From assembly GCA_902525075.1 (NCBI GenBank), contig CABZFV010000009.1:1-64000 (forward strand): 64,000 nt of DNA. The letters run 5' to 3'. The notes below the pieces were generated by a model. The model saw only the letters and a list, made by a program, of their open reading frames with translations, was not told where the DNA came from and did no database searches. Position 1 is the first letter of the stretch. Each line of letters starts with the position of its first letter. Shown here in pieces: positions 57,723 to 61,030 of the stretch. Source of the stretch: an uncultured Prochlorococcus sp. (GTDB taxonomy: Bacteria; Cyanobacteriota; Cyanobacteriia; PCC-6307; Cyanobiaceae). A program made the translations under genes and the position numbers.

Positions 57723-58826
57723 ATGGTGTTATTCAATAAAATAAAAAATAAACTGCGTATTAATTACAGAAAAAAAAGATGGCCAGGTCTAATAGAAGCT
57801 TATAAACAATATCTTCCAGTTACAAAGAAAACTCCTATTATTTCCCTAAATGAAGGAAATACACCACTAATTCTAAGCGAGTCAATTAGCAACTTAATTG
57901 GAAATGGAACAAAAGTTTTTTTAAAATATGATGGCCTTAATCCAACAGGATCTTTTAAAGATCGTGGAATGACTATGGCAATTAGCAAAGCAAAAGAAGA
58001 AGGCCGTGAAGCAGTAATTTGTGCAAGTACTGGAAATACCTCTGCAGCAGCAGCTGCATATGCCTCGAGAGGGGGATTAAAACCTTATGTTTTAATCCCA
58101 GAAGGATTTGTTGCACAAGGAAAGCTTGCGCAAGCATTAATGTATGGTGCTGAAATAATATCTATTAATGGAAACTTTGATAAGGCTCTTGAAATTGTTA
58201 GAGATTTATCCTCAGAACAACCTATAGAGCTTGTTAATTCTGTTAATCCATATCGAATACAAGGTCAAAAGACAGCAGCTTTTGAAATAGTTGATGACTT
58301 AGGTTATGCTCCTGATTGGCTTTGTATTCCAATGGGTAATGCAGGAAATATAACTGCTTATTGGATGGGATTTAAAGAATATTCAACAATAAAAAGGAAT
58401 TTGAAATTACCAATAATGATGGGTTTTCAGTCCGAAGGCTCTGCTCCATTAGTAAAAAATATAATAGTTAAGAATCCAGAAACAATTGCAACTGCAATAA
58501 GAATTGGAAATCCTGTAAATAGAGAAAAAGCAAAAAAAGTAAGAAAAGAAAGTAAAGGAGACTTTCAATCAGTTACAGATGAAGAAATAATCAATGCTTA
58601 TAAAATTCTTGCCAAAGAAGGAGTATTTTGTGAACCTGCCAGTGCAGCATCAGTTGCTGGACTGATTAAAAATAAAAATAGAATTCAGAAAGAATCGACT
58701 ATTGTTTGTGTTCTGACTGGAAATGGATTGAAAGATCCTGATTGCGCTATAAAAAACAACGATGCTATTTTCAGGAAAAATATTGAACCTTCATTAAAAA
58801 ATATAACTAAGATCTTAGGATATTAA
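57723..58826 (+). CDS. thrC: threonine synthase
   Basis: This PLP enzyme makes threonine from O-phosphohomoserine. The 367-aa protein has the cofactor lysine in [11 protein letters not shown] at residue 79, [15 protein letters not shown] and the glycine-rich loop region GNAGN. Length and motifs match the type without an N-terminal regulatory domain. The ATG lies 6 bp after the DUF1400 stop. It is the last gene before the origin-like gap. Confidence 0.95.
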
Positions 58827-58873
58827 AATCCAAAAAAAATAGTGTCTGTGGAAATCAATTAAAAATAAACCTC

Positions 58874-58958
58874 ATTTGTTGAAAAGTACATAACAAGAAA
58901 TTCTATTTGTTGAATAAATTTAAAATTTTCGAAAAAAATAAAAAATATTCAACAAATA
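58874..58958. repeat. ATTTGTTGAA repeats in the origin gap, including a 13-bp inverted repeat
   Basis: ATTTGTTGAA at 58874-58883 and TATTTGTTGAATA at 58904-58916 are direct copies about 31 bp apart (10-bp core). TATTCAACAAATA at 58946-58958 is the exact reverse complement of the second, with a 29-bp spacer. The motif is the most regular repeat in the window. Confidence 0.75.
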
Positions 58959-59108
58959 AAAAATGTTTTACACATATTCTTTTCTTCGTAAACTAAATAA
59001 ACAAGCTGTTTTATTGAAGAATTCCACAGTTCCCACAAAAACTACTATTACTAAATTTTTTATTTTATTATTTATTTTTATATTAGAAAACAGTGAAGAA
59101 TAAATTTA

Positions 59109-59137
59109 TTGAATTTAATTTACGAAAAAAGTATATT
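59109..59137 (+). promoter_or_regulatory. candidate dnaN promoter
   Basis: TTGAAT (59109-59114) and TATATT (59132-59137) are separated by exactly 17 bp. The predicted transcript would begin about 20 bases before the dnaN ATG at 59164. Confidence 0.55.
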
Positions 59138-59163
59138 GTATTTGTAAAAAGTTCCAAATTCTA

Positions 59164-60321
59164 ATGGAAATTATTTGTAATCAAAATGAATTAAATAATG
59201 CTATACAACTAGTAAGCAAGGCAGTTTCTTCAAGGCCAACGCATCCAATTCTTGCAAACATACTTTTAACAGCTGACGAAGGAACTAATAAAATTAGCGT
59301 CACAGGATTTGACTTGAATTTAGGAATTCAAACTTCTTTTGATGGAACTGTCAAAAATAGTGGAGCTATTACTATACCTTCAAAACTTTTATCCGAAATA
59401 GTAAACAAACTACCTAATGAAACTCCTGTTTCTCTAGAAGTAGACGAGAATTCAGATAATATCCTAATAAAAAGTGATAGAGGTTCTTTTAATCTAAAAG
59501 GTATCCCCTCTGATGAATATCCTAACTTGCCATTTGTTGAAAGCGGTACTTCTTTGAATATTGATCCTAGTTCTTTTTTAAAAGCTTTAAAATCTACCAT
59601 TTTTGCCAGTAGTAATGATGATTCAAAGCAACTACTAACAGGTGTTAACTTTACTTTCAAACCAAATTATTTAGAGTCTGCTTCCACAGATGGTCATAGA
59701 TTGGCTGTTGCCTTAATTGGTAATGAAGAACATATTAAAAATAAAGAAAACTTATCTTCAAATGTTGATGATTTATCGGTAACTATCCCAACTAGATCAT
59801 TGAGGGAAATTGAAAAACTAGTATCTTTGAGAACCTCAGAAAATTCAATTAAGCTTTTCTATGACAAAGGTCAAGTAGTATTTATATCTTCTAATCAAAT
59901 AATTACTACAAGAACTTTAGAAGGTACTTATCCTAATTATTCACAATTAATTCCTGATTCTTTTTCTAAAATTCTAAATTTTAATACAAAAAAATTAATT
60001 GATTCATTAGAAAGAATTGCTGTTTTGGCTGATCAGCAAAGTAGTGTTGTAAAGATTAAATTAGATGATACAGATTTAGCTTCAATTAGTGCAGATGCTC
60101 AAGATATTGGAAATGCAAATGAATCAATACCTGTTTCTTATTCTGGAGAAAATTTTGATATTGCATTTAACGTAAGATATTTATTAGAAGGTTTAAAAGT
60201 AATTGCTTCTGAAAATGTACTTTTAAAATGTAATATTGCAACTACTCCAGCGGTTTTTGTGCCAGAAGATAATCTTAATTCTTTTACTTATTTAGTTATG
60301 CCTGTGCAGGTTCGTTCTTAA
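59164..60321 (+). CDS. dnaN: DNA polymerase III beta subunit (sliding clamp)
   Basis: The 385-aa protein is the ring-shaped clamp that tethers the replicative polymerase. The three-domain pattern is visible: KAVSSRPTHPILANILL and the SVTGFDLNLGI segment of domain 1, STDGHRLAVA in domain 2, and the C-terminal end YLVMPVQVRS in the position of the usual MPMR(L/I). The start ATG gives a standard N-terminus. A 17-bp-spaced promoter lies just upstream. It is the first gene of the dnaN block that marks genome position 1 in related strains. dnaA is not adjacent. Confidence 0.97.
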   Translation: MEIICNQNELNNAIQLVSKAVSSRPTHPILANILLTADEGTNKISVTGFDLNLGIQTSFDGTVKNSGAITIPSKLLSEIVNKLPNETPVSLEVDENSDNILIKSDRGSFNLKGIPSDEYPNLPFVESGTSLNIDPSSFLKALKSTIFASSNDDSKQLLTGVNFTFKPNYLESASTDGHRLAVALIGNEEHIKNKENLSSNVDDLSVTIPTRSLREIEKLVSLRTSENSIKLFYDKGQVVFISSNQIITTRTLEGTYPNYSQLIPDSFSKILNFNTKKLIDSLERIAVLADQQSSVVKIKLDDTDLASISADAQDIGNANESIPVSYSGENFDIAFNVRYLLEGLKVIASENVLLKCNIATTPAVFVPEDNLNSFTYLVMPVQVRS

Positions 60322-60322
60322 T

Positions 60323-61030
60323 TTGAAATTACCTAAAGAAATTTTATTAAGTGAATTATTAAATTATAGTGTTAAGGGTAATATGGTCCTTAATTATGGA
60401 AATGGTGAAAATGTTTGGATGCATCCTCCAGTTCACCGGATTCTAGGATGGTACTCTCGTCCTTCAAATTTTGATTTAAAAAGAAATGTTTGGCGATTAA
60501 ATCAAATTACTCAAATAATAGATAATGAAATTTATGTTAAAGGTGATCCAGCTATTTCGGATTTAGCAACTTTAAATAGGTTTCCAACTCTAATAGAAGC
60601 TAATCTTATAAATATAAATGGATCAAAAATAGGATTCATTGCAGATTTTTTATTTGAAATGAAAACGGGAAAAATTAAATATTACTTAGTTTCTAGATCT
60701 AATCCTAAGATTCCAGGTTCTAGTAGATGGAAATTAACTATTGATAATATCAATGACCAACAACCGGGATTGGTATTTTGTGAAAGTAATTCTTTAGATG
60801 ATTTACCTTTAATAAAATCAAGTATTAAAAATGAATTTATGCAAAAAGGGAAAAAAATTTTTGATAGATTTGATGATATGAAAAATATTGCTTCTAATAG
60901 ATTAGAGGAATGGCTTGAAGAAGATGAAGATATTAGCCAAAACTTAGATTTTAAACAAAAAAGTTTTTATAATAATCACAAAACATCTATACCGTCTAGT
61001 GAAAAAAAAGAAGATGACCCTTGGATATAA
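60323..61030 (+). CDS. PRC-barrel-like conserved protein
   Basis: This 235-aa cyanobacterial-type protein probably contains a PRC-barrel-like beta domain in the middle (LIEANLININGSKIGFIADFLFEMKTGKIKYYLVSR). That pattern resembles PRC-barrels of RimM and photosynthetic reaction centre H subunits. The C-terminal third is charged. The start is TTG at 60323, 1 bp after dnaN, so it is coupled to dnaN. No catalytic motif is evident. Function unknown. Confidence 0.8.
   Translation: MKLPKEILLSELLNYSVKGNMVLNYGNGENVWMHPPVHRILGWYSRPSNFDLKRNVWRLNQITQIIDNEIYVKGDPAISDLATLNRFPTLIEANLININGSKIGFIADFLFEMKTGKIKYYLVSRSNPKIPGSSRWKLTIDNINDQQPGLVFCESNSLDDLPLIKSSIKNEFMQKGKKIFDRFDDMKNIASNRLEEWLEEDEDISQNLDFKQKSFYNNHKTSIPSSEKKEDDPWI

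Follow-up and report, generated by a model that had tools for sequence, protein, structure and literature searches.

A predicted chromosomal replication origin between thrC and dnaN in Prochlorococcus

Our analysis of a 64,000-nucleotide stretch of DNA from an uncultured Prochlorococcus sp. (the window) leads us to propose, with high confidence, that this Prochlorococcus replicates its chromosome from a single origin (oriC) located in the 337-bp gene-free gap separating thrC from dnaN and fired through DnaA boxes, DnaA-trios and the opening of an A/T-only block. A sequence-only reading had already named this gap as a probable origin, and the strand switch located here, the conserved geometry of boxes and trios, and a box register shared with distant relatives all support that proposal. 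The core element of the gap, a module of tandem DnaA boxes followed by DnaA-trios, was overlooked in that reading.

Because the same module has been characterized biochemically in other bacteria, we infer that the same opening mechanism operates in Prochlorococcus. DnaA, encoded far from the gap, would bind the diverged upstream boxes and the conserved abutting pair at 59020-59037. From this pair a DnaA filament would extend over the DnaA-trios (59042-59053, minus strand) and stretch that strand, and the adjoining A/T block (59052-59085) would open as a result. Helicase loading would then establish two forks, one moving rightward through dnaN-purL and the other leftward through thrC.

The locus

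The window is contig 9 of a draft assembly (34 contigs, 1.40 Mb, 85.7% complete). Prochlorococcus single-cell genomes match it most closely, with DnaN identity of up to 99%; from these matches, which include MIT 9314 and MIT 9302, and from general knowledge, we take the window to be of the high-light type.

57723..58826, plus strand: thrC, threonine synthase (TIGR00260, 322 bits, cut-off 167, NCBIfam)
58827..59163, no strand: predicted oriC, the thrC-dnaN intergenic region (strand switch at this boundary, conserved length)
59164..60321, plus strand: dnaN, DNA polymerase III beta clamp (TIGR00663, 331 bits, cut-off 138, NCBIfam)

Counting as gene-free any segment without an RNA gene or an ORF of at least 80 aa, the gap is the longest such stretch of the window, as had been claimed, with a runner-up of about 275 bp. 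Its length is held at roughly 336-346 bp across the genus (thrC stop codon counted in). A second copy that appeared on contig C12, 80% identical, was rejected as an A/T-rich chance match that carries neither boxes nor trios. Between dnaN and purL lies a 235-aa ORF (60323-61030) with no NCBIfam match, and the relative G095 has a 235-aa ORF at the equivalent position beside dnaN.

An adjoining dnaA is excluded, as the dnaA of this genome lies on contig C7 (G000:C7:60261-61601). The gene was found in all 21 near-complete genomes of the genus. Its product has an intact DNA-binding domain, judged by a comparison in which the recognition region, GGKDHTTVMYAI, is the same in high-light and other family members.

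Strand composition switches at the gap

A change in strand composition at an intergenic region need not mark an origin; it may arise as a by-product of gene order combined with A/T-rich intergenic sequence. Raw skew in the window does follow gene direction, with several sign changes, and A/T runs reaching 34 nt are no rarity in the genus. We therefore discarded raw window-scale GC skew as evidence, since it reflects mostly gene orientation, and compared third codon positions strand by strand. Plus-strand genes left of the gap have a GC skew of -0.04 to +0.03 and a TA skew of -0.05 to -0.12, and those to the right have +0.13 and +0.105, respectively; minus-strand genes left of the gap have a GC skew of about +0.20 and a TA skew of +0.06 to +0.10. 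Normalized for gene strand, third-position skew thus shifts at the gap in the manner that had been noticed by eye.

Two complete relatives, G095 (1,641,879 bp) and G239 (1,738,790 bp), each sampled as twenty 20-kb stretches, stood in for the window's own incomplete genome at the scale of the whole chromosome. Both deposited records start just upstream of dnaN. In plus-strand genes, third-position GC skew lies mostly between +0.1 and +0.3 as far as about 0.8 Mb from dnaN, and from about 0.9 Mb onward most values are close to 0.1 or lower; minus-strand genes behave oppositely. The strand-normalized skew of both chromosomes is a single V with its foot at dnaN and the opposite switch near 0.85-0.9 Mb, the pattern of a chromosome with a single origin, at dnaN, and a single terminus on roughly the far side.

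The boundary was then placed by a leading/lagging classifier that scores codon choice as log-odds conditional on the amino acid, trained on stretches of G095 and G239 away from origin and terminus; the training labels presuppose an origin near dnaN at whole-chromosome scale and leave the exact boundary free. Over the 51 genes of the window the cumulative score falls through the first 48, reaches its minimum exactly between thrC and dnaN, and then rises. To the left, 43 of the 48 genes clearly score with the plus strand lagging; to the right, all three score with the plus strand leading. Across the two ends of the G095 record the boundary falls at the same place, give or take one gene (thrC there scores +1.0). 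A skew minimum away from the gap, which the sequence-only reading had named as the result that would count against an origin, was thus looked for in the window and in two complete chromosomes, and the minimum fell at the thrC-dnaN gap and the foot of the V at dnaN. The switch remains when only genes on one strand are compared, when third codon positions are taken and when the amino acid is fixed. A second genome switches at the same boundary, and element spacing and box register (below) are conserved among relatives with DnaN only about 55% identical; an explanation by gene order and base composition, with no origin at the gap, is accordingly very hard to sustain.

A cluster of probable, diverged DnaA boxes

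No exact TTTTCCACA occurs in 58827-59163. The near-matches to the cyanobacterial DnaA box that had been noticed there do exceed chance: three sites lie within one mismatch of TTTTCCACA/TTATCCACA (0.32 expected, P=0.002) and ten within two (3.9 expected, P=0.006, dinucleotide shuffles of the gap in both cases). Across the 64 kb as a whole there is no enrichment of near-matches (27 found, 36.5 expected). Clustering of DnaA boxes beyond chance, by which bacterial oriCs are recognized, is therefore a property of the gap. Five of the seven boxes that we distinguish lie upstream of the core module.

58847..58855, minus strand: DnaA-box-like site 1, ATTTCCACA (identical in 70 of 82 relatives; mean pairwise diversity of 58843-58856, 0.030)
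58877..58885, minus strand: DnaA-box-like site 2, TTTTCAACA (identical in 74 of 82; most relatives keep it 30 bp from site 1)
58908..58916, minus strand: DnaA-box-like site 3, TATTCAACA (identical in 61 of 82; left arm of an inverted repeat)
58946..58954, plus strand: DnaA-box-like site 4, TATTCAACA (identical in 59 of 82; right arm of the inverted repeat)
58966..58974, plus strand: DnaA-box-like site 5, TTTTACACA (one mismatch to TTTTCCACA)

We compared the registers of these boxes, measured from the trios, with 17 distant family sequences whose DnaN is about 55% identical, taking as a box any site with at most two mismatches (background 5%). The register of site 4 (-96, plus strand) holds a box in 13 of the 17, that of site 5 (-76, plus) in 12, that of box 6 (-22, plus) in 17 and that of box 7 (-13, plus) in 14, and several of these same-register boxes read TTTTCCACA or TTTTCCACT. 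Because the register is common to relatives so distant, boxes 4-7 are best read as homologous DnaA boxes that have drifted. Boxes 1 and 2 are conserved within the genus and probably correspond to the relatives' boxes at -207 and -175, shifted by 10-12 bp. Site 3, which has no same-register counterpart in the 17 distant relatives, is the least certain of the seven.

Exact TTTTCCACA-type boxes average 0.13 per gap in high-light genomes versus 0.82 in the 17 distant family members. As the recognition region of DnaA is unchanged, the boxes appear to have drifted without an obvious compensating change in specificity. The suspicion that the initiator sites are diverged is thus borne out, with four of the seven boxes in register with those of distant relatives and the recognition helix of DnaA unaltered.

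Boxes 3 and 4, with two mismatches each, fall within a 13-bp inverted repeat (TATTTGTTGAATA/TATTCAACAAATA, 58904-58916 and 58946-58958). At least 12 of its 13 pairs are retained in 60 of 82 relatives, and its folding beats that of shuffles (z -3.0). No intrinsic terminator of thrC was found at the repeat. Few of the changes among relatives are compensatory, and some relatives break several of the pairs, which makes two facing weak boxes an equally good explanation. The repeat may represent such a pair of DnaA boxes, form a hairpin, or bind another protein.

The predicted core unwinding module

Rightward of the upstream boxes lie the following elements.

59020..59028, plus strand: DnaA box 6, AATTCCACA, upstream member of a tandem pair (identical in 73 of 82)
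59029..59037, plus strand: DnaA box 7, GTTCCCACA, abutting box 6 (zero gap in 95 of 99 sequences)
59038..59041, no strand: 4-nt spacer, AAAA (length 4 in 95 of 99)
59042..59053, minus strand: DnaA-trios, plus-strand CTACTATTACTA, that is, minus-strand 3'-GAT/AAT-5' repeats (nearly every one of the 82 genus sequences has four triplets; mean diversity 0.025)
59052..59085, no strand: A/T-only block of 34 nt, candidate DNA unwinding element (no longer A/T run exists in the 64 kb)
59109..59137, plus strand: predicted dnaN promoter, TTGAAT-17 nt-TATATT (diversity of 59108-59136, 0.020, the most conserved segment of the gap)

The geometry of two 9-bp boxes, a 4-nt spacer and trios is exact in 95 of the 99 aligned gaps (79 of 82 from the genus and 16 of 17 from distant family members). 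All 99 gaps contain a run of two or more CTA/TTA triplets, and in 97 the run is three or longer; the window has four, running into the A/T-only block, and reads CTACTATTACTA where most relatives read CTACTACTACTA. The spacer is fixed in length and free in sequence, and its GC content rises from 0.20 in the genus to 0.69 in distant family members and 0.92 in other cyanobacteria. Within the genus, the end of the trios lies 107-116 bp from the dnaN ATG.

The 34-bp A/T-only block that had been described in the gap is present, and the 30-bp duplex of lowest stability in the window (59055-59085) falls inside it; the 34 nt beyond the trios average 94% A+T over the 99 gaps. Because the genus has equally long runs at other places (11 of 34 nt or more in 800 kb), the block is suggestive through its position only, and we rejected it as evidence of an origin in its own right, being unexceptional genome-wide.

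Constraint on the gap and a predicted promoter

Mean pairwise diversity was calculated over the 82 genus-level gaps, and because many of these are closely related, the values compare sites within the set and do not count independent events. Conservation is concentrated in islands: box 1 has a diversity of 0.030, boxes 2-5 have 0.10-0.13 and the tandem boxes 0.059, and the values for the CTA repeats and the dnaN promoter are 0.025 and 0.020. Between the boxes diversity reaches 0.18-0.29, and the four-fold sites of the flanking dnaN and thrC genes have 0.20-0.22. Positions in the tandem boxes, trios and promoter are thus far more conserved than synonymous sites. A promoter consensus scan of the gap gave no excess over shuffles; it is from conservation that we suggest the right-hand third of the gap doubles as the dnaN promoter.

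That the most conserved segment should be a promoter would also fit a locus that is a relic, whose conserved blocks are kept for driving or regulating dnaN (for example with DnaA as a transcription factor) while replication proceeds independently of DnaA, as in Synechocystis. There is precedent, as some cyanobacteria that carry dnaA replicate without DnaA-oriC (PMC7198777). Such species, however, have irregular skew, and here there is one clean V at dnaN; the box-trio geometry, which plays no part in transcription, is fixed; and dnaA is kept in every near-complete genome of the genus. Published metagenomic sequencing coverage of ocean Prochlorococcus is bi-linear, which supports one origin and one terminus per chromosome (PMC9589681). 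We regard a relic as improbable, if slightly less so than a by-product of composition, and favor a working, DnaA-fired origin.

The core module across cyanobacteria

We surveyed sampled, unevenly complete genomes for a strict core pattern, written on the opposite strand as trios, 1-6 nt and TGWGG, with the backward pattern as control. Matches came from 85 of the 151 genomes of the genus, 31 of the 201 of the family and 86 of the 194 of the class (Cyanobacteriia), almost always one per genome, and the control gave a few scattered matches only. Outside the family, 49 of the 63 matches examined share the orientation of dnaN and are found no more than 1 kb upstream of it. Genomes with no match may still hold the module, because the strict pattern misses variants (all 99 aligned gaps carry triplets).

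Several genomes (f26/g85, G493, G435, G455 and G409) have the core far from dnaN, mostly by hundreds of kb, and in most of them it is also distant from dnaA; their origins may be separated from both marker genes. In G493 one core sequence occurs four times and may be a repeat element. Families f15, f13 and f16 lack the strict pattern in all sampled genomes and have dnaA in nearly all, and they may have diverged trios or have lost their dependence on DnaA-oriC. In family genomes such as G161 and G039 the core, again next to dnaN, is reached only after more than 1 Mb of the deposited sequence (the G039 record begins at dnaA), so that the deposited start differs from the predicted origin.

Implications

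The predicted origin of very abundant marine photosynthetic cells is narrowed here to a base-resolved module that a short oligonucleotide assay could test. The gap also offers an anchor for metagenomic methods that estimate replication rates, and the combination of tandem boxes, 4 nt and CTA repeats would serve as a simple marker of cyanobacterial origins, including those in draft genomes or with weak skew. It is tempting to speculate, although we consider it a minority prospect, that the high-light Prochlorococcus origin is a lineage-specific, weakened version of the cyanobacterial one, with an A-rich spacer, boxes drifted to TTTTCAACA/TATTCAACA under an unchanged DnaA, and boxes 1-2 about one helical turn nearer the trios. 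Firing of such an origin would depend more steeply on the level of DnaA, which would suit tightly timed, once-a-day replication.

Comparison with known origins

The basal unwinding system (BUS) of bacterial oriC, defined in B. subtilis, consists of DnaA boxes, DnaA-trios and a DNA unwinding element (PMC6669920, PMC8287927). DnaA bound to the box pair assembles along 3'-GAT-5' trios and stretches the strand in B. subtilis and a number of further species, Synechococcus elongatus among them (PMC6669920, PMC8287927), and S. elongatus DnaA unwinds its own BUS in vitro (PMC8287927). DnaA binding, filament formation and unwinding at the gap are what this biochemistry leads us to expect. BUS elements have been predicted in 85% of 2070 oriCs, a set that may well already include Prochlorococcus, with a typical box-to-trio distance of 10-13 bp (PMC8287927).

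Like the BUS of B. subtilis, the gap has two tandem DnaA boxes, a short spacer, at least three 3'-GAT-5' trios and an A/T-rich unwinding site beside them. Where the BUS search rule asks for three or more DnaA-trios no farther than 16 bp from a box, the gap has box 7 at 4 bp and box 6 at 13 bp from four triplets, the latter distance falling within the published peak. It differs in its A-rich spacer (AAAA, where a GC-rich spacer is typical of BUS, though not required by the search rule) and in the distance to dnaA.

Among cyanobacteria, the oriC of S. elongatus PCC 7942 has been placed beside dnaN experimentally (PMC7198777), and Ori-Finder predicts dnaN-adjacent origins with TTTTCCACA boxes for most species (PMC4674748). 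The gap resembles these in lying directly upstream of dnaN and distant from dnaA, with a box cluster and a skew switch, and differs from them in having no perfect TTTTCCACA. The A-rich spacer and the drift of boxes in high-light genomes are the only details without a match in the literature cited here; in its overall design the gap is a further instance of a kind of module already known in bacteria.
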